Source of the DNA: an uncultured Opitutales bacterium | Lineage (GTDB): Bacteria > Verrucomicrobiota > Verrucomicrobiia > Opitutales > Oceanipulchritudinaceae | Assembly (NCBI GenBank): GCA_913056355.1 | Contig: CAJXMX010000009.1 | Span: forward strand, 1 to 34,300 | Direction of reading: 5' to 3' | Length of the DNA: 34,300 bases | In this document: one piece after another, positions 17,702-33,611 of the stretch | Layout of the letters: the number at the start of each line of letters is the position of its first letter | Numbering within the stretch: position 1 is the first letter of the stretch | Program-made: the position numbers and the translations under genes | Notes under the pieces: generated by a model | What the model saw: only the letters and a program-made list of their open reading frames with translations | Database searches by the model: none | Told to the model about the DNA's origin: nothing

Positions 17702-18799
17702 TCACACCCCCGCCCGGAGCCGCTGGACGCGCTCGTACCAGCGCACGGGGGTCCAGCCGGAGACGGGTTTGCGCTGGCGCAGCTTGGGCGGATTCCGGGT
17801 CAGGATCCGGTCCTTGGTTTGCTCCCAATGCTCCATCCAGCCGGGATCTGAATTGCCCAGCAACCGGTCGGCCATCTGCCGGCGGAGGAGCTCGTTGCGC
17901 CAGCGGTGGAACTCGGGCAGGAGCTGCTCACGGGACTCCCGCCACTGGCCCAGCAACCCGATGGCGGCAGCCGTGTCGCCCCATGGATAGGGTGTGGGCG
18001 CGGCATCCACGTCCCAGGTCCCGGTGCGGGCCAGGCCTTCCCCGTCCGGGACCAGCGGGAAGCAGTCCAGGGCCAGGGCCTGCAGGAGCCACGGGGAATC
18101 CAAGGTATAATCGTTGAGCAGGATGGTGCTGTCCCAGGTGTAGAGGCGGTAAAGGGCAAATTCCAGCGGCATGCCGGCGCTCCAGGTCAGGTGGTCCTTC
18201 CGGGACCAGCCCGGCCGGCCCTTTCCATCGACGATGATTTCCAGTTCCCCGGCCTCCGCCGGCCAGCGGTCGACAAAGGCCCGCAGGCGGTTCCCATATT
18301 GTTTCCATTGACGCCCGTGGAGCCAGATTCCGGTCCGGCGGCCGGGTGCCTTGCGCTCCTTGCCGGACAGGCTGTCCGGCAGCACCGGTTGGGGGACGCA
18401 GTAAAGGTAGCGCTCCGGAATCCAGCTGAAGCGCTGGTGCAGCCGGGTGACCAGTTCCGGATCGCTGAGGAGGGCTTTCCCGGCACAACGGATCTGCCAC
18501 TCGAAATTGCGGTCCCAGCGGGGAAACCAGTGGTGCTGGAAAATCACCTTCTGCGGGCAGGGATCGAGGGGGCCCAGGGCATCGACTCCGGCGGCATCGT
18601 GGTAAATGGTGATCTCCGCCTCCTTGGTGGCCTGCAGCCAGCGCTGGAACTCGCGCTTGACCGACTTGAAGAAGACGCCCTGGACAATCCCGGCGCGGCT
18701 GCCCCAGACAAAGGCCGGCTCGCCGGTGGCCTCGCGCCAGGCCAGGGCCCGGTCGGTACCGGACGTCTCGGAATGAAAAATGTGTCGGGCTTTGCTCAT
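17702..18799 (-). CDS. Unfamiliar protein, possibly a GT-B-like glycosyltransferase
   Basis: I do not recognise this 365-residue soluble protein with confidence. Two alpha/beta halves are suggested. The first contains VIFQHHWFPRWDRNFEWQ and ALLSDPELVTRLHQRFSWIPERY, resembling an acceptor-side domain. The second begins TGIWLHGRQWKQYGNRLRAFVD and includes STILLNDYTLDSPWLLQALALD, placed like the donor-binding E-x7-E segment of GT-B enzymes but without its glutamates. There is no signal peptide or membrane helix. It is the last gene of a four-gene - strand operon with three glycosyltransferases (6 nt after the GT31-like gene), so a sugar-transfer or sugar-binding role is likely by context. The C-terminus is rich in Arg and Lys. 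Confidence 0.7.
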   Translation of the reverse strand: MSKARHIFHSETSGTDRALAWREATGEPAFVWGSRAGIVQGVFFKSVKREFQRWLQATKEAEITIYHDAAGVDALGPLDPCPQKVIFQHHWFPRWDRNFEWQIRCAGKALLSDPELVTRLHQRFSWIPERYLYCVPQPVLPDSLSGKERKAPGRRTGIWLHGRQWKQYGNRLRAFVDRWPAEAGELEIIVDGKGRPGWSRKDHLTWSAGMPLEFALYRLYTWDSTILLNDYTLDSPWLLQALALDCFPLVPDGEGLARTGTWDVDAAPTPYPWGDTAAAIGLLGQWRESREQLLPEFHRWRNELLRRQMADRLLGNSDPGWMEHWEQTKDRILTRNPPKLRQRKPVSGWTPVRWYERVQRLRAGV

Positions 18800-18805
18800 G
18801 GATTG

Positions 18806-19561
18806 TCAGCGGGGGGCGCCGCCGCCCGGGAGCCGGGTCCAGAGCGACATCAGGGTTCGGCGGAAAGGAGTCCGGGGCCACGTCCTCATACGCTCCAGGC
18901 GGTGCATCCAGGCCGGCGGCACATAGTGGTTGGAAATGAGGTCCGGCCGGCTGTACAACGGCGGCCGCAGGTCGGGATGAAAGCGCCGGTCCGCCCGGAG
19001 GCGGATTCCCGCCTCATGGAGGAGGCTTCCGATCATGACATCCTCGATACTGACCGATTCGCGATACCGCTTCTCCCCCAGTTTGCGCATCCGGCTGTTG
19101 CCTTTGAACCAGGGGGCGGCGGCGTGCTCCGCAAAGGGCCGGGAGACGACCGCCTGCACGGCCTTGCAGCTCAGCCAGTAGCAGCCGCCCTGGGCGTAGG
19201 GTTCGAACTGGGGCTGGTCCGGAGGGGGATTTCCGGCATAGTCCCCGAAGTCTCCGGAGGCGGCAGCCAGACGCGCGCAATCCAGGTAGGTATCATCGTC
19301 GCACTTGACGAGGGCCCGGAACTCGAGCGTGCGCAGGCAGTATTCCAGCATCCGGTAGCTCTTCTCCGCCAGGTCGGCGTATCCGTCCGGCGCAGACAGG
19401 AGCAGACGATCCTCCTCGATACGGTCCCCGGGGTGGCCGCCTTCGACGTACAGGATCCGCTGGCCCCTTTCCGGCCGTCTGCCCCAGGAGGCCCGGACTG
19501 CGGCCTGCCGGCCCTGACGGTGGGCCTGGCAACTGAGGACGAGGATCAGGAGGTCGGACAT
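18806..19561 (-). CDS. GT31-like (beta-1,3-galactosyltransferase-type) glycosyltransferase
   Basis: A 251-residue protein with the ordered motifs of the Galactosyl_T (GT31) family, GT-A enzymes that use UDP-sugars and a metal. These are RQAAVRASW (W26), GYADLAEKSYRMLEYCLR, VKCDDDTYL (DDD at 88-90, the DxD metal site), YAQGGCYWLSCKAV, and IEDVMIG (173-175). The start at 19561 (MSDLLILVLSCQAH) leaves a 7-nt gap to the upstream GT4. Most GT31 enzymes I know are eukaryotic Golgi proteins with a membrane anchor. This one has no transmembrane anchor and is shorter, as expected for a cytoplasmic bacterial enzyme. Sugar specificity is not readable from sequence. Confidence 0.8.
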   Translation of the reverse strand: MSDLLILVLSCQAHRQGRQAAVRASWGRRPERGQRILYVEGGHPGDRIEEDRLLLSAPDGYADLAEKSYRMLEYCLRTLEFRALVKCDDDTYLDCARLAAASGDFGDYAGNPPPDQPQFEPYAQGGCYWLSCKAVQAVVSRPFAEHAAAPWFKGNSRMRKLGEKRYRESVSIEDVMIGSLLHEAGIRLRADRRFHPDLRPPLYSRPDLISNHYVPPAWMHRLERMRTWPRTPFRRTLMSLWTRLPGGGAPR

Positions 19562-19568
19562 CGGTGGA

Positions 19569-20714
19569 TCAGTGGTTGCGGAAATAACCGGCCAGGCCCA
19601 GCTGGCGGATTTTCTGGCGACGATGGTACATCCAGAGCGGGTACCAGCCGGCAAAGGGCTTCATCTCCGGCGAAGGCTCGACCGCCTCGTGGACGAGGGC
19701 GTCGACCCGTCCGGTGAATTGCCCGAGGTAGGATGTCACGGAACGCGGACCGATGGCCTGCCAGGATTTTTCCCGGTAGGCTGCCCGGTCCGGATCGACC
19801 CAGCGCTGCTCGATTTCCGCAATGACCCCGGCCGCCGCCTTGACGTTTCCCTTCGGATAAAGGAATTCCGGCGACAGGTCGGCCACCCAGTCCTGTCCGT
19901 CATGGAAATCCGGATAGACCGGGATGGCCCCGGCCGCCACCCCCTCGATGAGGGACAGGGGCAGGCCCTCGTAATCGCTCAGGAACAGGATGTAGGTCCA
20001 GGAGAGGAGCGTGTTCCGGTAGGCCTCGCCCTCCAGGTGCTCCAGGAAACGGACCTTGGACCGAAGTCCCAGCTTCTGCTTGAGCGGCTCCAGGTAAGTC
20101 CCGTCTCCAAGGATTTCCATCCGGTAATCGATCCCCTTCTGGTCCAGGGCGTTGAGAAAGCCTGGCAGCCGGTCCAGCCGCTTCTGCTGGATCTGGACGC
20201 GGCCGGAAAACCCGATCACCGGCGGGCGCGGCTTGGGCCGGTTGCGGGCCTCCAGCGGGGGCAGCCGGACCGGCAGGTCGATGGAAAGGACCGGCAGCCG
20301 GTCCGCCCGGCCGAGGCTGCCCAGGATTCCCGCGGCGAGCCGGTCGTTGACGCAGAGGATGCCCCCGCAGTATGGACGCAGCGCGCGGATGAAATGATTC
20401 AGGCCCGGGTAGTCGGAATGCAGATACATCAGGTGCGGCCCCCGCCGCCGGGCGGCATCCAGCCAGTCCAGGGCGTAGCCGTTGTAATGCAGTACGGCCG
20501 CGTCCGGATAAGGAGCCAGGGCCTCCCCGAGCCGCTCAACGCCTTCCCGGACGCGCAGGCCCGGGCGCAGGCCGAGCTGGACCACTCCCGGCCCGGGGTC
20601 ACCCTCCCCGCTCATGGCGATCAGCGGCTCGCCCTTCTCCAGGTGGACGCGGGCGATCCGCTCCATGCCGCCGCCGCAGGGCCAGCGCTTGAGAATGTGG
20701 ATCCGCTTTTCCAT
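19569..20714 (-). CDS. Family 4 glycosyltransferase (GT-B fold)
   Basis: A 381-residue retaining GT-B enzyme. The N-terminal glycine-rich loop is KRWPCGGGMERIARVHL. A MYLHSDYPGLNHFIRALRPY segment lies in the acceptor half. The donor half starts VIGFSGRVQIQQKRLDRLPGF and carries DYEGLPLSLIEGVAAG (E249 and E257, the E-x7-E pair). ATG 20714 (MEKRIHIL) is used; GGAGG lies directly against it, an unusually close spacing. The gene is 14 nt after the GT8-like gene and 7 nt before the GT31-like gene, so it is part of one operon. Substrate is unknown. Confidence 0.85.
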   Translation of the reverse strand: MEKRIHILKRWPCGGGMERIARVHLEKGEPLIAMSGEGDPGPGVVQLGLRPGLRVREGVERLGEALAPYPDAAVLHYNGYALDWLDAARRRGPHLMYLHSDYPGLNHFIRALRPYCGGILCVNDRLAAGILGSLGRADRLPVLSIDLPVRLPPLEARNRPKPRPPVIGFSGRVQIQQKRLDRLPGFLNALDQKGIDYRMEILGDGTYLEPLKQKLGLRSKVRFLEHLEGEAYRNTLLSWTYILFLSDYEGLPLSLIEGVAAGAIPVYPDFHDGQDWVADLSPEFLYPKGNVKAAAGVIAEIEQRWVDPDRAAYREKSWQAIGPRSVTSYLGQFTGRVDALVHEAVEPSPEMKPFAGWYPLWMYHRRQKIRQLGLAGYFRNH

Positions 20715-20728
20715 CCTCCAGGGATTAT

Positions 20729-21427
20729 TCAGGCCAGCCCCCAATCCTGCAACCGTTTGTCGAGGTCGCGCAGCATGACCGCCTTGGAAGCCTGTCCGGC
20801 ATAGTGGACCACCATCGCCTCGCGGCGACGTGCTTCCAGATTCCAGCCATTGCCTCCGTCCGGCATGAAATTGTAAGTGGGATCAAGGACTTCAAGGGGC
20901 AGACCGGCCTGCAGGGAGCGGTAGTTGAGCAGGGTCTGCTCCGGCCAGCGACCCCGGACAAAGGCCTTCCGGTCCATGCGGAAAAGTCCGCGGTGGGAGG
21001 CGTCGAGCACCATCACCCCGGTGTTGAAGTAGCGGCGGTTGCCCTCCGGCAGGGGGCCCAGCCGCGCGGCCCTACGGTCCAGTTCCTCCCGCCCTTTCCA
21101 CGCCTCCCCGCCCAGGTCGTCATAAACACAGCCCAGCCGCCCGGACGGAACCAGCCCCAGCAGGTCCGGACAGCCCGGATGGAGGATGATGTCCGAGTCG
21201 AGGAAGAGGACCCGGTCGAAGCGCTCCAGGATTTCCCGCAGCTGGAACTTTTCCACATGAAACTGCACGCGCCGCTTGATAAGCAGGTTGGGCCGGATCC
21301 GGAAGCGCGGGGTGTCGAGAATGACCAGCTCCAGTCCATGCCGCCTGGCATAGGCCTCGAAAATGGCATGGGTCCGGCATTCCTCCTCCGGAAGCCCGAT
21401 TGCCAATGTGACCAGCGCTTTCTCCAT
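20729..21427 (-). CDS. GT8-like glycosyltransferase (GT-A fold)
   Basis: A 232-residue protein resembling glycogenin/LgtC-type GT8 enzymes. It has VLFLDSDIILH (DSD at 77-79, metal and nucleotide-sugar site), YFNTGVMVLD (FNTGV 134-138), EQTLLN (163-168) and HYAG (208-211, second metal ligand). The order and spacing fit GT8. ATG 21427 was chosen because the frame upstream (open to 21778) runs through the divergent gene and is arginine-rich noise. It is the first gene of the - strand operon GT8, GT4, GT31, GT-like. Its promoter should lie in the 115-nt divergent region. Confidence 0.85.
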   Translation of the reverse strand: MEKALVTLAIGLPEEECRTHAIFEAYARRHGLELVILDTPRFRIRPNLLIKRRVQFHVEKFQLREILERFDRVLFLDSDIILHPGCPDLLGLVPSGRLGCVYDDLGGEAWKGREELDRRAARLGPLPEGNRRYFNTGVMVLDASHRGLFRMDRKAFVRGRWPEQTLLNYRSLQAGLPLEVLDPTYNFMPDGGNGWNLEARRREAMVVHYAGQASKAVMLRDLDKRLQDWGLA

Positions 21428-21449
21428 GCCCCGTCTAGGAGATAGCCTT

Positions 21450-21527
21450 GGGCAATGCCGGGGCAATGCAATTTCGCGCAGCCGGCGAACGGCAACATAG
21501 TCTTGCCCTATTTTCATTCCGGGCAAG
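21450..21527. promoter_or_regulatory. Cluster of GGGCAA sites in a divergent promoter region
   Basis: GGGCAATGC occurs twice, 11 bp apart (21450-21458, 21461-21469). A perfect 7-bp inverted pair CTTGCCC/GGGCAAG (21502-21508, 21521-21527) with a 12-nt spacer repeats the same GGGCAA core. The sites lie between the divergent GT8 and SRDG genes and could be an operator, though none has been tested. Confidence 0.3.
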
Positions 21528-21542
21528 GCTCGGGCCTTCACC

Positions 21543-22796
21543 ATGGAGACCCTCCCCGGCAATCGATCCGCGGATTCCCTGCCCGCCAGCGCCCGGGCCT
21601 TTTTCACGGAACTCGGGCGCAACGTGGCCGCTCCGCTGCTGGCCACGATGGTCGACTGGATGATCGAGCGGGTCCGCCGGCAGCAGCCGGAAATCCTCCT
21701 CTTCCTGAGCCGGGACGGACGCATTATCCGCGAAGTCTGGGAGGCCCGCTGTCCGCCGGACCTGGCCGGATTGCCCACCCGCTATGCCCTCGCCTCCAGA
21801 CGGGCCCTCCGGGTGGCCTCCCTCGAGCGGATCGACGGCGACTTGCTCCGTCTCCTCACCCACCACGCGGAGGGCTTGCCCTTCCGCGAGCTGTTTGATT
21901 CCCTGCACCTGCCCGGCCAGCGGATCGAGGCGGTCATTCGTGAGCATTCCGCGGTCGATCCCCATGCCCCCTACCACCGCCGCCAGGCGGCCACGGCGGC
22001 CCAGGTCCTGCACCTGCTGGGGCAGGATATCCAACGCCGGGCCGGGGAGGAGCGGGAAGCCTACCTGCGCTACCTGGATTCGCTGGAACTGGACGGGGCC
22101 CGCCGGGTCGGGATCGTCGATATCGGCTGGCACGGTTCCCTGCAGGCGGCCCTGGCCCGGCTGCTGCGCCGGCGGAATCCCGATATCGCCACCCGGGGCT
22201 ACTACCTGGCCCTGTTCGGGGGTGCCTCCAAATGGCGCAGTGACAGGGATTCCATGGAAGGCTGCCTGCTGCAGGAGGGCGAACCGCGGGTCCGCGAAGG
22301 CGAACTGGCCGACTGCGTCGAGCTGCTGGAGTTTCTCTTTTCATCGACCGAGCCCGGGCTGCTTTGTTTCCATGAGAAGGACGGACGGGCGGTCCCGGTC
22401 TTCATGGAAGACCGCCGTTCGGCCTACCAGAAGGAAGCCCTGGACGCCTTGCGGGAGGGAATCCTGGAGGAGATCGGGGAATCCGTCCCGGATGCCGGGG
22501 AGGCCTACCGCAGGTTCCGCCGCCTGGCTTTCCACCCGACCCGCGAGGAGGCGCGGTTCCTGGGTCGACTCCAGGCCCGGCGCGGATTTGGCAAGGCCGG
22601 TCTGCTGCAGCCGTTCGCCCAGCCGGGGAATCCCGTCTTCAACATCCTGCATTGGGGGCGCTTGTACCGGAGCTTCAAGGAAGCCCTCTGGCGCAACGGT
22701 TACTGGGCCGCCCTGAGCCGCCCCGAACGCGCGCTCCTGAGGATGATCAGTCCGGTCGGGACTGCCCGCTTCATCCACACCAGCCGCGGCCGTTAA
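21543..22796 (+). CDS. Stand-alone SRDG-module protein of unknown function
   Basis: A 417-residue protein that I cannot assign to a named family. It is homologous along most of its length to the C-terminal half of the HAD protein at 23704 and to the middle of the fusion at 25695. Shared motifs in order: ELGRNVAAPL near residue 23, LFLSRDG (56-59 SRDG), YALASRRALRVAS (84-92), VDIGWHGSLQ (192-200), RGYYLALF (219), and ELLEFLFSSTEPGLL. The module begins almost at the N-terminus, so the HAD domain is absent. There is no signal peptide. It starts a + strand run with GT2 and HAD-SRDG genes, 41 nt before the GT2. Conserved R, D, W and H residues suggest an enzyme acting in glycan synthesis, which is inference. 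Confidence 0.8.
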   Translation: METLPGNRSADSLPASARAFFTELGRNVAAPLLATMVDWMIERVRRQQPEILLFLSRDGRIIREVWEARCPPDLAGLPTRYALASRRALRVASLERIDGDLLRLLTHHAEGLPFRELFDSLHLPGQRIEAVIREHSAVDPHAPYHRRQAATAAQVLHLLGQDIQRRAGEEREAYLRYLDSLELDGARRVGIVDIGWHGSLQAALARLLRRRNPDIATRGYYLALFGGASKWRSDRDSMEGCLLQEGEPRVREGELADCVELLEFLFSSTEPGLLCFHEKDGRAVPVFMEDRRSAYQKEALDALREGILEEIGESVPDAGEAYRRFRRLAFHPTREEARFLGRLQARRGFGKAGLLQPFAQPGNPVFNILHWGRLYRSFKEALWRNGYWAALSRPERALLRMISPVGTARFIHTSRGR

Positions 22797-22837
22797 TTAA
22801 TCTTGAAACTGCCCCTATCCTCGCAGACCGTCCCGGT

Positions 22838-23707
22838 ATGGCTAAGATTGGCGCGATCATGCGGACAAAAAACCGCCCCCTGCTCCTCAGGCGGGCCCTG
22901 CAGAGTGTCTGCAGCCAGACCCTTGAGGATTGGGAAATTGCCCTGGTCAACGACGGCGGGGACCCGGCCGAGGTGGACCAGCTGGTCGACGCCCTGCCCG
23001 ACCGCCATCGCGGAAAGGTGAAGGTCATTCACCATCCTTCCTCCGTGGGCATGGAAGCCGCCTCCAACGCCGGGCTGCGCGTCCTCGAGTCGAAGTACGC
23101 CATGGTCCACGACGACGACGATTCCCTGCAGCCGGAATTCTTCGCCCGGACCGCGGCCTACCTGGACCAGCCTCCGCATCCCTCGATCAAGGGGGTCATC
23201 ACCCATACCGAGCGGATCATCGAGGTCATCGAGGGGGACCAGGTCCGCCAGGTCCGCACCTATCCCTACAACAACTGGCTGCAGTCCATCAGCCTGCGCC
23301 GCATGCTGGCGGAAAATGTCTTCGCCCCCATAGCCTTCCTCTTCGACCGGGAAGCCTGCCTCGAGGCCGGAGCCTTCAGGGAGGACCTCCCGGTGCTCGG
23401 GGACTGGGATTTCAACGTCCGCTTCCTCCTCAGGTACGAGATCGGGGTCATCCCAGAGCAACTGGCCTTCTACCACGACCGCGAAGGCGACGGCAGCGAC
23501 GACTATTTCAGCTCGGTCCGCGCCAAGGCGCACCTCCACGCCCTTTACGACAACCTGCTCCGCAACGAATGGCTGCGCAAGGACATCGAGGCCGGCCGGA
23601 CCGGACCGGGCGTCCTGGCCAACCAGTCCCTGATGCTCTGGGACCTCTCGTGGGACATCAAGCAGGAGTTGAAGAAGCGCAAGTTCAAGATCTTCAAGTC
23701 GAAATGA
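22838..23707 (+). CDS. Family 2 glycosyltransferase (GT-A fold)
   Basis: A 289-residue inverting GT2-type enzyme without membrane helices. It has AIMRTKNRPLLLRRALQSV, VNDGGD (38-42), GMEAASNAGLRVLES and HDDDDS (92-96, the DxD site). LGDWDFNVRFLLRYEIGVIP provides the later acidic motif. ATG 22838 (MAKIGA) is the family-like start; the longer frame to 22652 overlaps the preceding gene. It is a close paralogue of the first ~270 residues of the fusion at 25695. Its stop overlaps the start of the HAD-SRDG gene (ATGA, 23704-23707), so the two are probably made together as a split version of that fusion. Confidence 0.9.
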   Translation: MAKIGAIMRTKNRPLLLRRALQSVCSQTLEDWEIALVNDGGDPAEVDQLVDALPDRHRGKVKVIHHPSSVGMEAASNAGLRVLESKYAMVHDDDDSLQPEFFARTAAYLDQPPHPSIKGVITHTERIIEVIEGDQVRQVRTYPYNNWLQSISLRRMLAENVFAPIAFLFDREACLEAGAFREDLPVLGDWDFNVRFLLRYEIGVIPEQLAFYHDREGDGSDDYFSSVRAKAHLHALYDNLLRNEWLRKDIEAGRTGPGVLANQSLMLWDLSWDIKQELKKRKFKIFKSK

Positions 23708-25704
23708 AGGACGCCTTCGAGAGCCTCCTGGAGCAGGTCCAAGTCCTGTCCCTGGATGTATTCGACACCACCCTGGGCAGGCTCTGCGCCCTTCCGGACG
23801 ACGCCTTCCTTCTCATGGAGGAAGCCCTCGTGGAGCGGCATGGGGAGGTCATGGAGGGTTTCGGCCGCAAACGCTGCGGGGTCGACACCCGCGCCCGCCG
23901 GCGGGCCTGGGACCAGCGCCAGGCCGAGGAGATCACGCTCCTGGACATTCACACCCAGCTGCTGGAGGAGAATCCGGACTGGCCCTGCACGGTGGAGGAA
24001 CTGTCCGGGCTGGAGATGGAGGTCGAGGAGCAGCTGCTCTATCCCCTCCAGCCGGCCCGCGAGATGATCGCCAAGGCCCGGGACATGGGAAAGCGGATCA
24101 TCTTCGTTTCCGACATGTACCTGCCGCAGGCCTTTTGCGAGCAGTGCCTGCGGGACAACGGATTCGGGGACTATGACGCCTTTTACCTCAGCTCGACGGT
24201 CGGGGTCCTCAAGCACTCCGGCAAACTGTTCGACCATGTCATCGAGCAGCTCGGGATTCCGCCCGGGGAGATCCTCCACGTCGGCGACAATTCCCACAGC
24301 GACGTGAAGCAGGCCGAGCAGGCCGGAATGAAGACCTTTCTGGTCGAGAAAGCCATTACCCGGGTGGACCGCTTTCCCGAAAACCCCTGGAAACCGGTGG
24401 CCGGGAAGGCCGACCGCGATGGCCGGGAAAGCCTGCTCCTGGGCCTCTCGGTGGCCGGATGCCTGCGGGAGGAGCGATTCGAGGATCCGCTCTGGTACCG
24501 CACCGGCTACCAGGTCGGGGGACCGCTGGTCTACGGCTATATCCAGTTCCTGATCCGCAGGATCCGCGGCCGCGGCATCAGGAAAGTCTATTTTCTCTCG
24601 CGCGACGGCTACATCATGAAGCAGGTCTACGAACGGCTGACCAGCGGGCTGGAAGACTGCCCGGAAGCCGATTACCTGTACGCCTCGCGCCGGGCCCTCA
24701 ACTTCGCTTCCATCCGCGAACTGGATGCGAAAACCGAGAACTGGCTGGCCGAGGGAATCCAGCTGACGGTGGGGGACTTCCTGCGCCGCATCGGTCTCGA
24801 TCCGGACCGGCACTTGCAGGCCATCCGGGAGACCGGTCTTTCGGGACCGGAGCACAAGGTTGTCGGCGGATGGGAATACACCCGCCTGCGCCAGCTGTAC
24901 CATCGTATCCTGCCCTCGATCCTCGAGGCCGCGGCCCGGGAACGCGAAACCTACCTCCAATACCTGCGCCACAAGGGCGTCTTCGAGGCCAGCCCGTTCG
25001 TCCTTGTCGATGTAGGCTGGATGACCTCCATCCAGCACTCCTTCGCCAGGATGGTCCGGGAAGTGGATCCGGACCTGACCCTCGAGGGCTACTACCTCGG
25101 CACTTATCCGGAGGCGGTCGAGCGGGCGGACGCCCATTCACGCCATGTGCATTACCTGATGGAATACGGCCAGCCGGCCGAGACCCTGCACATCATCCGG
25201 CACTGCGTCTGCCTGATCGAGTTCTTCTTCGCCGCGCCGGAAAAGACCTTCCTTTACATGGAAGGTGACGCCCGGAACGGCTTCAGGCCGGTCCTGGCCG
25301 GTATCCATGAAAACAAGGACGACCTGCCCAAGCTGGAGCAGATCCACCAGGGCATCCTCGATTACAGCGAAGCGGCCACCGCGGCCACCGGAGGGCGCGG
25401 GCTGGGCATCAAGCCGGCCGAGGTGATGCGCCTGCTGCAGCGGATGCTGGCGGAACCGACCGGGGAGGAGGCCCGCCATCTCGGTGAAATCTGCTACGCC
25501 GACGGCTACGGATCCTACTTCCACCACACCTTCATGGCCCGGCCCTCGGGTTTGCGCAAACTGGGGCTGAGCAAGAAAAAGTGGAAGGCCGAGTTCAAGC
25601 ACTGCCACTGGCCCAAGGGCTACTACATGCGCTTAAGCCCGCTGGAGCGGTTTGTCTTCCGGCTGATGCATCCTTCGCACCGCTTCAGCAAACCCTACGG
25701 CTGA
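23704..25704 (+). CDS. HAD-like domain fused to SRDG module
   Basis: A 666-residue two-domain protein. Residues ~10-225 are HAD-like: motif I SLDVFDTTL (D18, with F at +2 and D at +3), motif II IIFVSDMYL, a lysine region VLKHSGKLF, and motif IV ILHVGDNSHSDVKQAEQAG. A cap domain lies between motifs I and II. Residues ~265-600 are the SRDG module: YQVGGPLVYGY, YFLSRDGYIM (299-302), YASRRALNFAS (327-335), VDVGWMTS (435), GYYLGTY, IEFFFAAPEKTFLYM. The C-terminus is basic and aromatic. It resembles proteins annotated as predicted HAD hydrolases in polysaccharide clusters, but neither substrate nor reaction is known to me. Translation is coupled to the GT2 gene; its 3' end overlaps the convergent fusion gene by 10 nt. 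Confidence 0.85.
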   Translation: MKDAFESLLEQVQVLSLDVFDTTLGRLCALPDDAFLLMEEALVERHGEVMEGFGRKRCGVDTRARRRAWDQRQAEEITLLDIHTQLLEENPDWPCTVEELSGLEMEVEEQLLYPLQPAREMIAKARDMGKRIIFVSDMYLPQAFCEQCLRDNGFGDYDAFYLSSTVGVLKHSGKLFDHVIEQLGIPPGEILHVGDNSHSDVKQAEQAGMKTFLVEKAITRVDRFPENPWKPVAGKADRDGRESLLLGLSVAGCLREERFEDPLWYRTGYQVGGPLVYGYIQFLIRRIRGRGIRKVYFLSRDGYIMKQVYERLTSGLEDCPEADYLYASRRALNFASIRELDAKTENWLAEGIQLTVGDFLRRIGLDPDRHLQAIRETGLSGPEHKVVGGWEYTRLRQLYHRILPSILEAAARERETYLQYLRHKGVFEASPFVLVDVGWMTSIQHSFARMVREVDPDLTLEGYYLGTYPEAVERADAHSRHVHYLMEYGQPAETLHIIRHCVCLIEFFFAAPEKTFLYMEGDARNGFRPVLAGIHENKDDLPKLEQIHQGILDYSEAATAATGGRGLGIKPAEVMRLLQRMLAEPTGEEARHLGEICYADGYGSYFHHTFMARPSGLRKLGLSKKKWKAEFKHCHWPKGYYMRLSPLERFVFRLMHPSHRFSKPYG

Positions 25705-28700
25705 TCGGTCGAGCTGCTGTCCGGCAGCTTCCCGGTGACAAGGATCTTCATCAACTGGCCGCGGTTGCGGAGGAGCGTTTCCATGTAGGCCAGACGCCGT
25801 TGCAGGCGGTCCATCTCCGAATCCAGGCTGGCCTTCTGCCCGGCCATCGCTTCCCTGGTCTGCCGGGTTTCCTCGCGGGAAGCGGCCAGGTCGGATTCGA
25901 GGCCCATCCTGAAGGCGGTCAGTTGGGCCAGTTCGGCGTCCAGGCCGGATTTCTCGGAGGCGATCTGCTCTATCTCGGCCTTTAATTCGGCGATGGTGCC
26001 TTCCCGGGCCACGACCTCCTTCTGCTTTTCAGCCCATACCTCCTCGGATTGCTTGATCTTCCATTCCAGGTTGCCCTTGACCTTGTGAACCTCGCGCTTG
26101 AGCTCGTTGACCTCCTCGTCCAGCTCCTTGACCCGCCTCTGAAAGGCGTCGCGGGCCTTTTCCATCAGGCGGGCCTGACCCAGGTTCTCCTCCTTCTCCT
26201 TCCAGAATTCCTCGGCCTGCTGGATCTTGAAGCTGAGGTCGCCACGCAGCTTGTTGATGGTTTTCTCCATGTCCGCGCAGCGTTCCTGGAAGTGCCCGGA
26301 CTCCCACTTCAGGCGCTCCTTCTCGGTCCACAGGTCGTCCGCCTGCCGCGTCTTCCACTCGAGGTCGGCCTTGAGGTCGGCCACCGTGCGGTCCTCGCGC
26401 ACCTTGAGGCGGTCCAGGATGAAATTGCGCTGGTTTTCCGCCAGGGAGGAAAGGAAGCCGCGCTTCCAGTTGGAAGCCCGGTAGGCCCGCATCAGTTCCT
26501 CGCGGTCCATGTCCGGCTCGATGGGCTCCACCAGGGGCTTGTAGATCTCCAGCCCGAAACCCTCCGAATGGAGCATCCCGCCCCACTCGGCCACTTCCGC
26601 CGGGCTGGGCTCGCGCAGGATCCGGTGCAGGACCAGGTTCAGGTAGGCGAAACCGTCCTGTGGGCCGGTGGACGGCAGGCCGCCCTCCAGGATACTGCGG
26701 AGGAATTCCCCGGCCCCGGTCCAGAGGGCTTCCTGCTGTTCTATTGAAAATCCGCTACGCACCTGGTCCGAGAATCGCGGCTCGAATCCGTTTTCCCCTT
26801 CCGCGAAGTCCAGCAGGGTGGCGTACGGGGCGGCGCTCAGGGACTCGATCCAGTTGACCGACTCCCGCACCAGCAGGGCGTGCTCCTCCGGCTTTTCCAG
26901 GTGGACGAAGTAGGACTTGACCTCCACCGGCAGCTCTCCCGGATCGGCCGGACTCCAGGTGCCGAAGAAATAACCGCGGACCCGCCGGGGCTTTTCGATC
27001 TCCAGAAGCCGGGCCACCGCCCGCACACAGGAGGCGTTCCAGCCGATGTCCACCAGGGCGCAGTCGTCGGGTTTGTAGTCGACCTGCCCGAGGGCCTGGA
27101 GCAGGCCGGCCCGGTCCCGCGCAAACAGCTCCTCCAGCTCCGGCTTGAGGAGCAGGAACATGTTGCGCAGCCGCGGACCGAATTCCGGGCGCAGGTAGTT
27201 GCCGCCCGCTTCCCGGGTCACGACCAGGTCCGGATCGGCAAACCCGACGTGCTCCATGATTTGCAGGTGGTCCTCGGCCCGCAATCCCGTGCGGTCGATG
27301 AAGTCGCGGACCCGCAGGGAAGGATTCGGTGTCAGGAGAAACTTCAGGGCCTCCTCGCTCAAGGAACCGAAGGAGGCGAAATTGAGAACCTTGCGGGAGG
27401 AGTGCAGGTAGCTGAACTCGATGCCCAGGGACGACTTTTCGTTGAGCAACTGCAGGGCCTTTTCCCAGTAGTAACCGTCGCGCCCAAGCAGGATCAACTT
27501 GCGCACACCGTCCTTGCGGGCCTGCCCCAGAACCCATGTCATGAAAAACAAATACAGGGGCCCGGCCACCTCGCGGCCCAGCCGCCGGGAACGGTCCGCC
27601 GCGGGATCGACCGGTTCCAGCAGGCCCAGGCGGGTCACCTCGCCGATGGTCCGCAGGCTGAGCAGGTCCCCGCGGTTGTACTGGTAGGGCTCGACCTCGG
27701 AACACCAGGGCGTGTAGTTGAATTCCCGCGACCAGTGGAAGGCCTGCCAGCCGGCTTCCCAGCAGCGCAGGCAGTCGCTGTGGAAATTGTCCCCGACATG
27801 GAGGATACGTCCGGGCTCGACCCCGAGGCGGGCGGCCACATCCGGCTGCAGGGTGCCGTCATGCTTGGAGAGGTGCCGTTCGCAGGAGACATGGACCTCA
27901 GGATCCTCGAATCCGCATCCCTCCAGGAACTGGCGGATGGTCGGGCTGTCGTGGTACATGTCCGAGACGAATATCACCTTCCTTCCCTCCTCCCGGCAGG
28001 CCTTGTACAGCTCCAGCCAGCGCGGATCGGCGTACAGCATCTCCTTCTCGATGCGCAGCTCCAGTTCCATCAGCCGGTCCCGGTCCAGCGGGTCCAGCTG
28101 TAGCCACTTTCCCGCTACCCGGTAGATTTCCGAAAGGGTCACCTCGGGCTGGAAATCCAGGCGGGCCCGCTGCTCCGCCTCCTCGCGGACCAGGGCGTAG
28201 GCCCGGGGCGGAAGCTTCAGCTCCCGGACGGCCCGTTGCTCGAGGAGCAGGAACACGTCCCCGGGCCGGTGGCAGCGGCGAAGCAGGACCGTATCGAACA
28301 CGTCCAGCGAGAGGACCTCAAAGTCGTAGTCGGCCCGGAAATCCGGCAGCGGCCGGGGAGCGGCGGGCTCGTCCGGGCGGAGGTTGAACGGCAGCATTTC
28401 CCCGCCGTCGGGCGGCGGGAACTCGATCCCGTCGATATCGCCCACGGCCCGCTCGGACCGGTCCAGGGCCTCCCGCCAGTAGGTGTTTTTCATCCGGTTG
28501 AGCATCCGGCGGTGCGTATTGCGGCTGCGGGTCACGGTGTTCCCGTGGCTGCCGTATCGCCAGTGGTAGTAGGCGTGGGCGGTGGGAATGACCGTGATGT
28601 CGAAGAAGCGGAGAAAGCGGAGGTTGAAATCGTGGTCGCCGAGGACATCGAATTCCTGCCGGAAGCCACCCACCCGCTCGTGGGCGGCGCGGCGGTAGAG

Positions 28701-29210
28701 GAAGGCGATCGGGGGGAAAATATTCCGGTGCCGCATTTCCCCGAGATTGACGTAGTCAAACGGGTAATACGGGTTCTGCTTGAGACGGACTATCCGGCCG
28801 TCGAGGCAAATCTCCTCCGTGACCTGGGTGGTCTGGGTCACCACCCCCTGGATGCGGCTGTGCGGACCCTGCTCCTCAAGGCAGCCGACGGTCTTCTCCA
28901 GAAAGTCCGGGTACCAGCTGTCATCGTCGTCATGGATGACCACGTAGACGCTTTCGACCGCGGCCAGCCCGGCGTTGGAGGCGTTCTGCATGCCCCGGGA
29001 CCGGTCATGGTGGACCACGCAGACGCGGTCCTGGTAGGCGTCGGCGAAGGTGGTCAGGAGGTCCTCCACCAGGACCTTGTCGCCCCCGTCGTTGACAATG
29101 ACATGAACCCAGTCGGAAAAGGTCTGGTCCAGGACCGACTGGATGGCCCGCTTGAGGAAGACCGGCCGGTCCTTGGTCCGGGTGATGATGGCGACTCGGG
29201 GGTGTTTCAT
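25695..29210 (-). CDS. Four-part fusion: GT2 glycosyltransferase, HAD-like, SRDG module, coiled coil
   Basis: A 1171-residue protein with four parts. GT2 occupies ~1-270 (ITRTKDRPVFLKRAIQSV, VNDGGD, IHDDDDS, LGDHDFNLRFL). The HAD-like domain is at ~295-510 (LSLDVFDTVLL near residue 300, VIFVSDMYHD, ILHVGDNFHSD near 472). The SRDG module is at ~555-880 (REVAGPLYLFF, LLGRDGYYW near 577, SSRKVLNFAS, VDIGWNAS near 720, IESLSAAPYATLL). The final ~230 residues are a long charged coiled coil with repeats. All GT2 acidic motifs are present, so sugar transfer is likely; the other parts are uncharacterised. There are no membrane helices. It corresponds to the GT2 gene plus the HAD-SRDG gene on the other strand, fused and extended. 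The methyltransferase gene lies 25 nt upstream. Confidence 0.87.
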   Translation of the reverse strand: MKHPRVAIITRTKDRPVFLKRAIQSVLDQTFSDWVHVIVNDGGDKVLVEDLLTTFADAYQDRVCVVHHDRSRGMQNASNAGLAAVESVYVVIHDDDDSWYPDFLEKTVGCLEEQGPHSRIQGVVTQTTQVTEEICLDGRIVRLKQNPYYPFDYVNLGEMRHRNIFPPIAFLYRRAAHERVGGFRQEFDVLGDHDFNLRFLRFFDITVIPTAHAYYHWRYGSHGNTVTRSRNTHRRMLNRMKNTYWREALDRSERAVGDIDGIEFPPPDGGEMLPFNLRPDEPAAPRPLPDFRADYDFEVLSLDVFDTVLLRRCHRPGDVFLLLEQRAVRELKLPPRAYALVREEAEQRARLDFQPEVTLSEIYRVAGKWLQLDPLDRDRLMELELRIEKEMLYADPRWLELYKACREEGRKVIFVSDMYHDSPTIRQFLEGCGFEDPEVHVSCERHLSKHDGTLQPDVAARLGVEPGRILHVGDNFHSDCLRCWEAGWQAFHWSREFNYTPWCSEVEPYQYNRGDLLSLRTIGEVTRLGLLEPVDPAADRSRRLGREVAGPLYLFFMTWVLGQARKDGVRKLILLGRDGYYWEKALQLLNEKSSLGIEFSYLHSSRKVLNFASFGSLSEEALKFLLTPNPSLRVRDFIDRTGLRAEDHLQIMEHVGFADPDLVVTREAGGNYLRPEFGPRLRNMFLLLKPELEELFARDRAGLLQALGQVDYKPDDCALVDIGWNASCVRAVARLLEIEKPRRVRGYFFGTWSPADPGELPVEVKSYFVHLEKPEEHALLVRESVNWIESLSAAPYATLLDFAEGENGFEPRFSDQVRSGFSIEQQEALWTGAGEFLRSILEGGLPSTGPQDGFAYLNLVLHRILREPSPAEVAEWGGMLHSEGFGLEIYKPLVEPIEPDMDREELMRAYRASNWKRGFLSSLAENQRNFILDRLKVREDRTVADLKADLEWKTRQADDLWTEKERLKWESGHFQERCADMEKTINKLRGDLSFKIQQAEEFWKEKEENLGQARLMEKARDAFQRRVKELDEEVNELKREVHKVKGNLEWKIKQSEEVWAEKQKEVVAREGTIAELKAEIEQIASEKSGLDAELAQLTAFRMGLESDLAASREETRQTREAMAGQKASLDSEMDRLQRRLAYMETLLRNRGQLMKILVTGKLPDSSSTDQP
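26022..26375 (-). repeat. Three-copy protein repeat in the coiled coil of the fusion protein
   Basis: The ~20-residue segment LKADLEWKTRQADDLWTEKE (from residue 946) recurs as LRGDLSFKIQQAEEFWKEKE (from 988) and VKGNLEWKIKQSEEVWAEKQ (from 1044). Offsets are 42 and 56 residues, both multiples of seven, so the heptad phase is kept. A buried tryptophan and the W-x-E-K ending are invariant in all three. Confidence 0.75.
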
Positions 29211-29235: not shown

Positions 29236-30291
29236 TTAACTTTTCAAGCCCTCCATGAACCGGTCGCGTCGCTCCCGCGATTGCTTTTCGCGCGACTCGC
29301 CGGCCAGAAGGGCCTCCTTGCGCAGCAGGTCGAGCTCGGCCCGCATCCGCTCCAGTTCCTGCCGCAGTTCCTTTTCCCGGGCGGACTGGGCCTGTTCGAT
29401 CTTTTCCAGGAAATCCTGTTCCGGAGCCTTTCCCCGGGCCAGTTCGTGGTTGTACTTGCCCCAGCTGAGGACGTTGGTGAAGCGGCGCTTGAGATCGCCA
29501 TGGAGAAAGAACAATTCCCGGAACCGGGCCATGATGCGCTGCAGCTCGGCCCCGGCCTTGCCGGAATCGGATGAGAAATTGAGCCAGGCCTGCCGGGAAA
29601 AGGCGACCGGCACCCCGCCCGGCTGCGGCAGCTCCGCGTCCGAGGCCAGGAAGAGCCAGGTGTCGGCCCAGTCCGGGGCGTGCCCGAAGTCGAGCCGCAT
29701 CTGGCGCTGCTCCCCGATCCGGACCACGTCGGCGGGGGATTGGCCCTCCGGCTCGATCAGCGAGCCCAGGTGGAAGCGCTGGCGATACAACCGGTAATGA
29801 CCGAAGGCCTTGCCCAGCAGCGCGGAAAGGTTCTCGCGGTTGAAGTACTGCAGGTGGAACTCGTTATCCTCGGTCCAGTCGGTCTCGCCCGGAACGGACC
29901 CGATGAGGATCCCGGATTCACCCAGGACCCCGCGGATGCCCTGCAGGGCCCGGGCCGGATCCTCCACGTGTTCCAGGGTCTCGAAGCAGACCACCCGGTC
30001 AAAGGTGCCCAGGTCCAGGGAGGGCAGGTCCTCGATCAATCCCGCCTCAAAGCGGACCCGCGGGCTTTTCCAGAGTTCGCGGCACCGGTCGATGGTCGCT
30101 TCATCGCGGTCCACCCCGACCACTTCGGAGGCATTGGCCTCCGCCATCATGCCGGCCCCGAACCCGTGTCCGCAGGCCACGTCCAGAACCCGCTGCTCCT
30201 CCACCAGGGGCTGGATCCAGGCGTATCGCAGCAGGTGGTCGAGGCAAAACCGGTCCTCCCGGCTGAAGGGATCAATGCGTTCAAGGGCCAT
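29236..30291 (-). CDS. SAM-dependent methyltransferase with C-terminal coiled coil
   Basis: A 351-residue protein. The class I methyltransferase domain has motif I VLDVACGHGFG (37-45), D61 in VVGVDRDEATID for the SAM ribose, and FDRVVCFETLEHVEDPARAL as motif II/post-motif. A middle region (about 180-285) follows, then a highly charged coiled coil of ~60 residues (EKIEQAQSAREKELRQELER and onward). Its start lies inside the end of the Wzt-type gene (11-nt overlap), so the two are translated together. In characterised ABC-dependent O-antigen systems a coiled-coil methyltransferase such as WbdD caps the chain and sets its length. The same role is suggested here by layout; no kinase domain is visible. 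Confidence 0.87.
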   Translation of the reverse strand: MALERIDPFSREDRFCLDHLLRYAWIQPLVEEQRVLDVACGHGFGAGMMAEANASEVVGVDRDEATIDRCRELWKSPRVRFEAGLIEDLPSLDLGTFDRVVCFETLEHVEDPARALQGIRGVLGESGILIGSVPGETDWTEDNEFHLQYFNRENLSALLGKAFGHYRLYRQRFHLGSLIEPEGQSPADVVRIGEQRQMRLDFGHAPDWADTWLFLASDAELPQPGGVPVAFSRQAWLNFSSDSGKAGAELQRIMARFRELFFLHGDLKRRFTNVLSWGKYNHELARGKAPEQDFLEKIEQAQSAREKELRQELERMRAELDLLRKEALLAGESREKQSRERRDRFMEGLKS

Positions 30292-31627
30292 CTTGCGGGC
30301 TGGTTGAAAGGTTTTCGATCACGCAGTTTCGGACAGGCAGAGGAGTCAGGCCCCAGAAAGGCTCGGGACCGGAGACTGCCAACTTGGCACAGTCCCATAG
30401 ACAGTCAAGGTCGTACCAGTCGTCGGTGGTGTGGTTGATGGCCAGGCCGATGACCAGCAGGTACAGCTGCGGACGCAGGTCGAGGCGGATCTCAAATCGC
30501 ATGGTCCGCCGGTCACCCGGCCGGGTAACGGAGATGGATTCCCCGGTGAAGAAGGAATGGTAGCCGCCGATGAGCTGGCCGGAGCGGTCCCGGAATCCGA
30601 ATCCCAGCTGGAAATCCTCAACCACCTCGTGGGCCAGCACCTCCACCTCGACTTCCAGCCAGTCCCCCACCCCGGCCCCGCCCTCGATGTCCGGACGGGT
30701 CCGTACGGACTCGATGGTCACCCGGCCGTCGCCGGTCCGTTCCTTGAAGTCGAGGAGCAGCAGTTTCCAGGCTTCCTCGCGGGATGCGCTGTCCGCCTTG
30801 CTGTCCCCGCCCGCCTTCTTTTCCTCCTCATTGATGGCCCGGTTGATGACCGGCTTTTTCCGATGCAACCGGTAATAGAGGTTGGCCGCCTCGGAAACAT
30901 CGGCATCGCAGACCATGTTCCCCTCGTCGAGGACGATTCCGCGCTGGCACAGGCGCTTGATCATGAACATGTCGTGCGACACGCAAAGGAAGGTCTTGTC
31001 CCGCGAGACATATTCCTCCAGCCAGCGGACGCAGCGGGACTGGAAAAAGGCATCCCCCACGGAAAGGGCCTCGTCGATTATGAGAATGTCCGGATCCACC
31101 GCGGTGATGACGGCAAAGGCCAGCCGCAGGCGCATCCCCGTGGAGTAGGTCCGGACGGGCTGGTTGACGAAGTCGCCGATGTCGGCAAAGGACAGGATAT
31201 CGTCCAGCTTCTCCTCGATCCGGCTCCGGGAAAGGCCCAGCATGGCCCCGTTGAGGTAGATGTTCTCCCGCCCTGTGAAATCGGGATTGAAGCCGGACCC
31301 CAGCTGCAGGAGGGCCGACATGCTTCCCCGGACCGCCACCTCCCCGGTGGAGGCCCGCAAGGTTCCCGCGATGACCTGCAGGAGCGTCGACTTGCCGGAT
31401 CCGTTGCGCCCGACAATGGCTACCGACTCGCCCGGATGAATGGTGATGTCCAGCGGCTTGAGGGCCTCGAAATGCCGGAAGCGGCCATGCCGGACCCCGT
31501 AACGGCCCATCAGGGCGTCCCACATGACCACCCAGGAGCCGAGAAAGGTATCCCGCCCGAGGACCGGCATCCGGTAGACCTTGGAAACGTTCTCTAAGTG
31601 AATGGCAGGCCGGTTCGCGGTATCCAT
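30281..31627 (-). CDS. wzt: Wzt-type polysaccharide ABC transporter ATPase with C-terminal sugar-binding domain
   Basis: The ATP-binding subunit of an O-antigen/teichoic-acid-type exporter. The 448 residues contain Walker A GRNGSGKS (73-80), Q-loop LLQLGSGFNP, signature YSTGMRLRLAFA (161), Walker B ILIIDE (181-186) and switch H218. After a charged linker (~275-295) comes a beta-rich C-terminal domain of ~150 residues. It matches the layout of Wzt proteins, in which that domain recognises the modified non-reducing end of the finished glycan before export. The gene overlaps the methyltransferase by 11 nt. The permease gene is divergent, 152 nt away, rather than in the same operon. Confidence 0.93.
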   Translation of the reverse strand: MDTANRPAIHLENVSKVYRMPVLGRDTFLGSWVVMWDALMGRYGVRHGRFRHFEALKPLDITIHPGESVAIVGRNGSGKSTLLQVIAGTLRASTGEVAVRGSMSALLQLGSGFNPDFTGRENIYLNGAMLGLSRSRIEEKLDDILSFADIGDFVNQPVRTYSTGMRLRLAFAVITAVDPDILIIDEALSVGDAFFQSRCVRWLEEYVSRDKTFLCVSHDMFMIKRLCQRGIVLDEGNMVCDADVSEAANLYYRLHRKKPVINRAINEEEKKAGGDSKADSASREEAWKLLLLDFKERTGDGRVTIESVRTRPDIEGGAGVGDWLEVEVEVLAHEVVEDFQLGFGFRDRSGQLIGGYHSFFTGESISVTRPGDRRTMRFEIRLDLRPQLYLLVIGLAINHTTDDWYDLDCLWDCAKLAVSGPEPFWGLTPLPVRNCVIENLSTSPQDGP

Positions 31628-31765: not shown

Positions 31766-31779
31766 CTGTGGCTTTCCGG

Positions 31780-32604
31780 ATGCAAACCAAGCCGACCAGA
31801 CCCAGACCTCCCGCCAGCTGGGCCCGGACCCGGGAGCTGCTCCACCAGCTGTCGGTCCGGGAGATTTCCGAGTCCGTCAAGGGCAGCACCCTCGGTGTGC
31901 TCTGGCTCGTTTTCAGCCCCTTGCTGAGCATGACGCTCTACGTCATCGTCTTCGGGCTGCTTTTCGGCGGTTCCTTCGGCCAGGTCGAGAACGAGTCCCC
32001 GCTGAGTTACGCCATCGGGATCTACATCGGGCTGTCCGTGGTCAACCTGGTCAACGAGACTATCGTCAAGTCCACCAACAACCTGTTCAACCACAGCATG
32101 CTGATCAAGAAGGTGGTCTTCCCGCTCGCCCTGCTGCCGGTGGTCCAGGTCACCGGGACGGCCTTCAAGCTCCTCATCAACACCTCATTGTGGCTCCTCA
32201 TGGGAATCTTCTTCGGCAGCGTCCTCGGCTGGCAGATCCTCTTTCTCCCGCTGATTTTCCTGCCCCTGCTGGCCATGGCCCTCGGCCTGGCCGCCCTGAT
32301 CAGCTCCCTCAGCGTCTATTTCCGGGATATTCAACAGCTGACCCAGGTCATGACCCAGATTGTCTTCTGGTCCAGCGGCGTTTTCTACAGCTCCCAGAAG
32401 GTGATGCAGGTTCCCCAGATCTGGGCCGTCCTGAAATGGAATCCGGTCCTCCTGGCAATCGAGAACATCCGCGACATTGTCCTCTGGGACCTCGCCCCCA
32501 GCCTGCCCCAGATCGGCTACCTCTACCTGGTCGGCTTCTTCCTCCTGGCCATCGGATTTCTCGTTTTCAACCGGCTCCGCAGCGGATTCTCCGATTTTCT
32601 CTAG
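31780..32604 (+). CDS. wzm: Wzm-type polysaccharide ABC transporter permease
   Basis: A 274-residue ABC-2 type inner-membrane permease that forms the glycan channel with Wzt. The cytoplasmic N-terminus ends in an interface segment (LLHQLSVREISESVKGSTLG). About six membrane helices follow, including LGVLWLVFSPLLSMTLYVIVFGLLFGG (approximate span), the region around LSYAIGIYIGLSVVNLV, LLPVVQVTGTAFKLLIN, LPLIFLPLLAMALGLAALI and LYLVGFFLLAIGFLVF. The WSSGVFYSSQKVMQVPQ loop is typical of the family. ATG 31780 is used; GTG 31768 would add four residues. No Shine-Dalgarno is seen. It is divergent from the wzt gene. Confidence 0.92.
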   Translation: MQTKPTRPRPPASWARTRELLHQLSVREISESVKGSTLGVLWLVFSPLLSMTLYVIVFGLLFGGSFGQVENESPLSYAIGIYIGLSVVNLVNETIVKSTNNLFNHSMLIKKVVFPLALLPVVQVTGTAFKLLINTSLWLLMGIFFGSVLGWQILFLPLIFLPLLAMALGLAALISSLSVYFRDIQQLTQVMTQIVFWSSGVFYSSQKVMQVPQIWAVLKWNPVLLAIENIRDIVLWDLAPSLPQIGYLYLVGFFLLAIGFLVFNRLRSGFSDFL

Positions 32605-32801: not shown

Positions 32802-33611
32802 ATGAATACCATGAAAAAACTTATCGCAGCCTTGCTTATCGGCTCGCTTTTCGCGTTCTCCGTGAACGCCCAGACCCCACCGGACGCCACGGTTGACCAG
32901 GACGGTAACCTGGTCCTCAACCCGGGCACCGAAGACGAAGTCACCATCCCCGTTCCGGAAGGTACCGTGGAAACCGACGGCAGCCTCACGGTCGGCGGGA
33001 ACAACATCCCGGCCCCGAATGCCACCGTCAATCCCGACGGCAGCATCACCGTTGACGGCAACACCATGATGGTCCCGGACCTGCCCAAGGGCGGTGCCTT
33101 CCCCGTCAGCTGGCTCGGTTCCGACCTCTACGACTACCAGCCGAATGTCCCCCCGGACCAGGACCAGAACTACTTCAGCTTCACCTTCAAGGACCTCCGC
33201 CACTGGGCCAACGACAACTGGTTCTGGTTCTATGAGTGGAAGGCCGCTGTGTACATCAACCCGAACACCGGTAGCCGCAACCTCGACGAAGGTGTCTGGT
33301 GCTACACCCGTAACCTCTTCCCCGGCCAGACCGAAGGAACCTGGTTCTACCTTGCCCGCAAGTACAACTGGCACGACCTGCGTGACAGCAAGCCCTACGA
33401 TGGAATTCCGGACCTCGGCGACGGCGAAGCCGGCGGCCAGCAGTTCGAAGGTTCCCTCTACGTCAAGAACCCGAGTGGTTATGACACCAAGGGTCAGGGC
33501 TGGTTCGTTCTCGGTGAATACCCGGACGGCAACTGGATCAAGCGCCTCGGCGATTCTTCCGCCCCCTGGGTCAAGCTGACCGATCCGGTCGCTCCTTCCC
33601 CGGCCAACTAA
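32802..33611 (+). CDS. Secreted aromatic-rich protein with N-terminal DGS/TV repeats, function unknown
   Basis: A 269-residue exported protein. KKLIAALLIGSLFAFSVNA is a clear signal peptide with a V-N-A cleavage site. Mature residues ~25-90 hold three related units (ATVDQDGNLVL..., GTVETDGSLTVGGNNIPAP, ATVNPDGSITVDGNTMMVP), likely short beta hairpins. The remaining ~170 residues are very rich in W, Y and F (NWFWFYEWKAAVY, GWFVLGEYPDGNWIKRLG) with one cysteine. I know no family for it. Codons such as GGT, CGT and GTT are commoner than in neighbouring genes, and a strong terminator follows, which suggests abundant monocistronic expression. ATG 32811 is an equally possible start. Possibly a surface or matrix protein associated with the exported glycan (inference from position). 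Confidence 0.85.
   Translation: MNTMKKLIAALLIGSLFAFSVNAQTPPDATVDQDGNLVLNPGTEDEVTIPVPEGTVETDGSLTVGGNNIPAPNATVNPDGSITVDGNTMMVPDLPKGGAFPVSWLGSDLYDYQPNVPPDQDQNYFSFTFKDLRHWANDNWFWFYEWKAAVYINPNTGSRNLDEGVWCYTRNLFPGQTEGTWFYLARKYNWHDLRDSKPYDGIPDLGDGEAGGQQFEGSLYVKNPSGYDTKGQGWFVLGEYPDGNWIKRLGDSSAPWVKLTDPVAPSPAN

Follow-up and report, generated by a model that had tools for sequence, protein, structure and literature searches.

Three proteins encoded close together in a 34,300-nucleotide stretch of contig CAJXMX010000009.1 from an uncultured Opitutales bacterium (hereafter the window) raise the question of which enzyme is repeated here, and why it occurs in three different settings. An earlier note, made from the sequence alone, had described an uncharacterised SRDG module that stands alone in one protein, lies behind a HAD-like domain in another and follows GT2 and HAD domains, with a coiled coil, in the third. 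All three open reading frames could be confirmed and are given here under the domain names for which we argue below, i.e. glycan phosphoribosyltransferase (gPRT, or CriT) and its HAD phosphatase (PRP, or CrpP):

21543-22796, + strand: stand-alone gPRT, 417 aa, with SRDG, ASRR and VDIGW PRPP-site motifs intact and without a phosphatase domain
23704-25704, + strand: PRP-gPRT, 666 aa, with PRP at residues ~1-232 and gPRT at ~250-660
25695-29210, - strand: GT2-PRP-gPRT-coil, 1171 aa, with GT2 at residues ~1-260, PRP at ~298-490, gPRT at ~525-930 and a coiled-coil-like tail at ~940-1150, followed by a short amphipathic C-terminal segment

The regions align as homologues over ~400 residues, the 21543 and 25695 copies being 28-29% identical to the 23704 copy, and R48, D49, G50, S76, R77, V183, D184, G186 and W187 are invariant across the three modules. 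A search of the whole genome with the 23704 protein returned the other two copies at E-values of 6e-60 and 1e-32, values that establish homology rather than chance, and detected no fourth copy in the genome. In the order 21543, 23704, 25695, the lead-in reads GRNVAAPL, GYQVGGPL and GREVAGPL, loop 1 reads SRDG, SRDG and GRDG, and the second motif reads ASRRALRVAS, ASRRALNFAS and SSRKVLNFAS; these are followed by VDIGWHGS, VDVGWMTS and VDIGWNAS, by GYY, GYY and GYF and finally by EFLFSS, EFFFAA and ESLSAA. The ordered motif set thus holds as previously read, except that the late glutamate segment is looser than had been written. The three domain contexts are likewise borne out by the HAD domain of the 23704 protein (PF00702, E 1e-10), the GT2 domain of the 25695 protein (PF00535, E 1e-18), behind which its HAD domain lies, and the coiled-coil-like tail. 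The 23704 and 25695 genes run towards each other and share 10 bases at their ends.

The module had appeared new because neither Pfam nor NCBIfam holds any model that matches it. Against the sequences of the PDB, however, a profile built from the three window copies alone found 7SHG (6e-17) and Bcs3 (4e-11) and no other PDB sequence below E 0.5, and with relatives added to the profile these values improved to 8e-27 and 9e-18. Single proteins gave the same answer, with 7SHG at 9e-21 and Bcs3 at 1.4e-19 for the 23704 protein, the match spanning HAD domain and module, 7SHG at 1.3e-10 and Bcs3 at 7.7e-9 for the 25695 protein, and 7SHG at 1.3e-7 (phmmer) for the 21543 protein. 7SHG is reportedly the Thermobacillus composti polysaccharide ribofuranosyl transferase of Kelly et al. 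2022; it is the best sequence match and shares the two-domain HAD-gPRT layout of the 23704 protein, while it differs from the window in its Gram-positive source and in reading SREG instead of SRDG, and from the 25695 protein in that the solved chain lacks GT2 and coiled coil.

Structure prediction led to the same family. For the HAD-gPRT model of the 23704 protein (mean pLDDT 86), the top eight Foldseek matches in the PDB were all chains of Bcs3 or 7SHG, with E-values between 6.5e-25 and 2.8e-22; matches below these were mostly single HAD-superfamily proteins. The AlphaFold2 model of the stand-alone 21543 protein (pLDDT 88, Foldseek 5e-11) displays a PRT-like core with helical bundles and superimposes on CriT of Bcs3 (8A0C, residues 636-1028) with Z 28.2 and 3.4 A over 371 residues, and on 7SHG with Z 26.3 and 3.3 A over 314 residues. 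The next group, type I purine phosphoribosyltransferases, reached only Z 6-8, a level that is no evidence by itself and would, as expected, fit a PRPP-binding core. We rejected a nucleotide-salvage phosphoribosyltransferase on this difference (Z 6-8 against Z 28 for CriT). A membrane polyprenyl-phosphoribose route of the ORF15 type (PMC11127046) seems less likely, since the modules match the gPRT and not the UbiA-like half and annotation of the window brought no gene of that type to notice.

In Bcs3, docked PRPP is contacted by S678, R679 and D680 in loop 1, by S707 and R708 in loop 2, by R712 and, in loop 3, by E818 together with residues after it, and the exchanges D680A and E818A lowered activity (PMC10299916). 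Arginine and aspartate of SRDG align with R679 and D680, the SR of the second motif aligns with S707 and R708, and the aspartate of VD(I/V)GW aligns with E818. RDG and SR are kept in 13 out of 13 compared copies, in which the position of E818 is held by Asp or Glu, and all three window copies carry equivalents of R679, D680, S707, R708 and, as Glu or Asp, E818. The earlier suggestion that the conserved Arg/Asp and Asp-x-Gly-Trp residues look catalytic is thus supported at the level of alignment, in that they fall on the PRPP-binding loops of Bcs3. Two positions count against the assignment, namely that of S678, which is Gly in the 25695 copy, and that of R712, which is Asn in two copies. The alignment to Bcs3 stops at residue 854-856, with the proposed general base E874 and S884 lying beyond; the conserved late glutamate, E506 in the 23704 protein, is a candidate only for the equivalent of E874.

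Members of this family use PRPP to add ribofuranose 5-phosphate to a glycan, whereupon a HAD phosphatase removes the 5-phosphate (PMC10299916, PMC11127046, PMC12096443). Taking family assignment and two-step reaction jointly, we consider it highly probable that the SRDG module is a PRPP-dependent glycan phosphoribosyltransferase. The window proteins would then bind PRPP via the SRDG, SR and VD(I/V)GW loops and move ribofuranose 5-phosphate onto the growing polysaccharide in the cytoplasm with release of pyrophosphate; in the characterised members the linkage is beta. Removal of the 5-phosphate by the HAD domain would then clear the way for addition of the next sugar.

The HAD domain is the partner phosphatase of the gPRT. 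Its motifs LDVFDT, SDMY, K and GDN(x)3D are intact in the 23704 and 25695 proteins, in both of which it directly precedes the gPRT, and the CrpP-CriT pair was matched along both domains. HAD domain and module are not independent partners but make up the two halves of one known two-step ribofuranosyltransferase (PMC10299916, PMC11127046, PMC12096443). The HAD-gPRT form found in the 23704 protein is common. Stand-alone gPRTs are rarer, though not confined to the window: one was encountered in a Desulfobacteraceae (L052), a Lachnospiraceae (L075) and an Oscillospiraceae (L108) genome, each near a HAD-gPRT gene, in a survey that was seeded on HAD motifs and hence undercounts them. Fusion of PRP and gPRT is usual, not obligatory, and of the window proteins only that of 21543 lacks it. 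In E. coli the two can be separate polypeptides (PMC10299916), which makes phosphatase action in trans plausible. We therefore propose that the 23704 protein would carry out both transfer and dephosphorylation, and that the 25695 protein would do the same with its GT2 domain acting next, for which Campylobacter Cj1432 offers a precedent. By itself the 21543 protein would perform only the transfer, its product being dephosphorylated in trans by the borrowed phosphatase of a neighbour.

In this genome of the Opitutales type (Verrucomicrobiota), the surrounding genes place the three gPRTs in an ABC-transporter-dependent polysaccharide locus:

17702-21487 (upper end approximate), - strand: four further locus genes, three of them glycosyltransferases, comprising the following four
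17702-18799, - strand: 365-aa protein without Pfam match, at the locus edge
18806-19654, - strand: Galactosyl_T (PF01762)-type protein
from 19569, - strand: GT4
from 20729, - strand: GT8
22838-23707, + strand: GT2-family glycosyltransferase (PF00535, E 2e-20), between the two + strand gPRT genes
29236-30291, - strand: SAM methyltransferase with a short coiled-coil-like tail (PF08241, E 7e-18), overlapping the Wzt gene
30281-31627, - strand: Wzt, ABC transporter ATPase with a Wzt_C carbohydrate-binding domain (PF00005, 8e-23; PF14524, 1.2e-15)
31768-32604, + strand: Wzm, ABC-2 type polysaccharide transporter (PF01061, 8e-13)

The order on the + strand is gPRT, GT2, PRP-gPRT, with the stop codon of the GT2 gene overlapping the start of the 23704 gene (ATGA) and with a gene order around this GT2 that is kept in relatives; on the - strand, Wzt and the methyltransferase, overlapping each other, precede GT2-PRP-gPRT-coil. 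The role in glycan assembly that had been suggested from context is borne out by this locus and by membership of the gPRT family, and the three paralogues probably serve different acceptors within the one Wzm/Wzt locus. Some neighbours recur in related genomes. The Galactosyl_T-type protein has a counterpart close to the stand-alone gPRT in both G012 and G008, and the 365-aa protein at 17702, which weakly resembles the GT4 protein of the locus, is conserved in G002 (54%) and G003 (42%). Adjoining Wzm, 32802-33611 encodes a secreted-looking protein without Pfam match, which lies beside the same locus in G002 too (56% identity).

Among characterised systems, the Hib Bcs3 CrpP-CriT (8A0C, 8A0M; PMC10299916) resembles the window in the order of HAD phosphatase and gPRT, in the fold shared over 371 residues, in the PRPP-site residues and in the export of the polymer by an ABC transporter, at 14-19% identity over the structural match. 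It differs in being a single copy, in carrying CroT, a CDP-ribitol transferase, together with an SH3b domain, and in that no coiled coil is reported. Campylobacter jejuni Cj1432 combines GT, HAD and gPRT in one polypeptide in the order of the 25695 protein, and each of the three consecutive reactions of its three domains has been demonstrated (PMC12096443); its N-terminal domain is, however, a GT4 instead of a GT2, and its C-terminus is a four-helix bundle rather than a long coil.

A contig search with an alignment of three close orthologues detected relatives, unlike one with the single 23704 protein. All three forms occur in G002, G012 and G015, and G002 in addition repeats the window's arrangement of genes between Wzm and the stand-alone gPRT, with one extra GT2. 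G008 carries the coil and stand-alone forms and a fragment of the third, and G007 carries two forms with frame breaks. A tree resolved three orthologous lines, with support of 100/100 for the HAD form, 100/100 for the coil form and 100/99 for four rows of the stand-alone form, which the G002 stand-alone copy joins at 93/88; the lines fall into one group of the host's family together with the single copies of G003 and G004 (93/90). A sample of 289 genomes from the phylum gave matches in 23, in some cases to the HAD domain only, and outside the host's family no genome had more than one. Several of these loci are imperfect: in G007 (L019 6292-9207) the GT2 and HAD-gPRT genes are broken up among several frames, while the stand-alone gPRT match of G002 (L015 13401-14630) contains one TGA, either of which may reflect sequencing error or decay. 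The short G008 fragment (L018 ~14863-15132), which adjoins the stand-alone gPRT and shares 59% identity with the C-terminus of HAD-gPRT, is apparently what is left of the third copy.

These observations allow other explanations to be weighed. The first reading, a new enzyme class unrelated to known ribosyltransferases, drew its support from the missing Pfam and NCBIfam model and retains practically no probability; it is already refuted, since the module significantly matches, in sequence as well as in fold, two members whose structures are solved and whose biochemistry has been studied. The module can therefore no longer be called uncharacterised, since 7SHG and Bcs3 (8A0C/8A0M) provide precisely the confident match to a family with an established reaction that the earlier note had itself named as decisive against its claim. 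Alternatively, duplication could have left one or two copies without catalytic activity, as relics or as scaffolds. In favour of this, the - strand copy has Gly for Ser in loop 1, and divergence is fastest among the stand-alone copies. RDG, SR and D are, however, kept in all copies across several genera, and each of the three lines persists as a set of orthologues, so that we regard this explanation as very unlikely.

The gPRT assignment leaves the tail of the 25695 protein to be explained, for which two roles come into question. Read from its sequence, the C-terminal stretch of ~200 residues is charged, poor in proline and glycine and coiled-coil-like. Past a fixed NWKRGF-like anchor, the tails of the orthologues measure 159 to 294 residues and end in a similar short segment with a hydrophobic moment of 0.37-0.50, and none of ten further gPRT proteins that also have a long C-terminal extension showed a comparable tail. 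Two orthologous coils contain 42-bp tandem repeats, each unit corresponding to 14 residues or two heptads, with 5.9 copies in G012 (L026 6621-6902) and 2.9 copies in G008 (L018 8411-8530), and the window's own coil contains none. The repeat units of G012 and G008 are unrelated in sequence, which suggests that the coils grew independently by two-heptad steps. Such differences in length from one species to another, some of them made up of 14-residue repeats, suggest a chain-length ruler of the WbdD/WbbB kind found in ABC-transporter glycan systems, in analogy to the coils of K. pneumoniae, which act as scaffold and ruler separating terminator from polymerase (PMC11231755). The K. pneumoniae O4/O7 systems resemble the window in featuring an ABC-transporter locus, a PRPP-dependent ribofuranosyltransferase and a coiled-coil scaffold or ruler, but there the ribofuranosyltransferase is separate and the coil is part of the terminator (PMC11231755), while gPRT and coil are fused in the 25695 protein. 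We put the chances of the coil being a chain-length ruler at about even; in that function it would probably anchor the assembly complex to the membrane and determine chain length.

With the same enzymes, the 25695 protein could instead be the chain terminator itself, capping the finished chain with ribose, or with ribose plus one GT2 sugar; the coil would then keep the protein apart from the polymerase, and Wzt_C would read the cap before export. The variable coil length and the differing 42-bp repeats would fit this reading as well, and so would the Wzt_C domain on Wzt and the layout of the protein, whose catalytic modules lie N-terminal to a coil that ends in a short amphipathic segment, just as the characterised K. 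pneumoniae systems have the terminator at one coil end and the membrane-proximal end at the other. Yet Hib Bcs3 and Cj1432, which contain the same modules, are polymerases, and terminators are more usually methyltransferases, such as the one encoded next door at 29236, which has a short coil itself, so that we consider a terminating 25695 protein rather unlikely. The methyltransferase itself is a candidate chain terminator; compared with solved structures it gave no WbdD match at E < 0.001, with which a terminator role is still compatible. More specific, and in our view doubtful, is the proposal that the 25695 protein joins PRPP-dependent ribosylation to the ruler, possibly as a ribose-adding terminator, and that the 21543 protein acts in trans with the phosphatase of a neighbour or leaves ribose 5-phosphate in the polymer.

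With the module assigned to the gPRT family, one apparent unknown enzyme is removed from the list, and the assignment also bears on annotation, since, with no Pfam or NCBIfam match for the gPRT, proteins of this family are usually named after the HAD half alone. What is unusual is solely the arrangement, in which three gPRTs lie side by side, one without a phosphatase and one as GT2-PRP-gPRT on a variable coil, and which was not found in characterised gPRT members. Three orthologous gPRTs in one locus constitute a natural series for studying acceptor choice. If the coil is indeed a ruler, ribosylation and chain-length control would be united in one protein, functions that the characterised systems keep apart.
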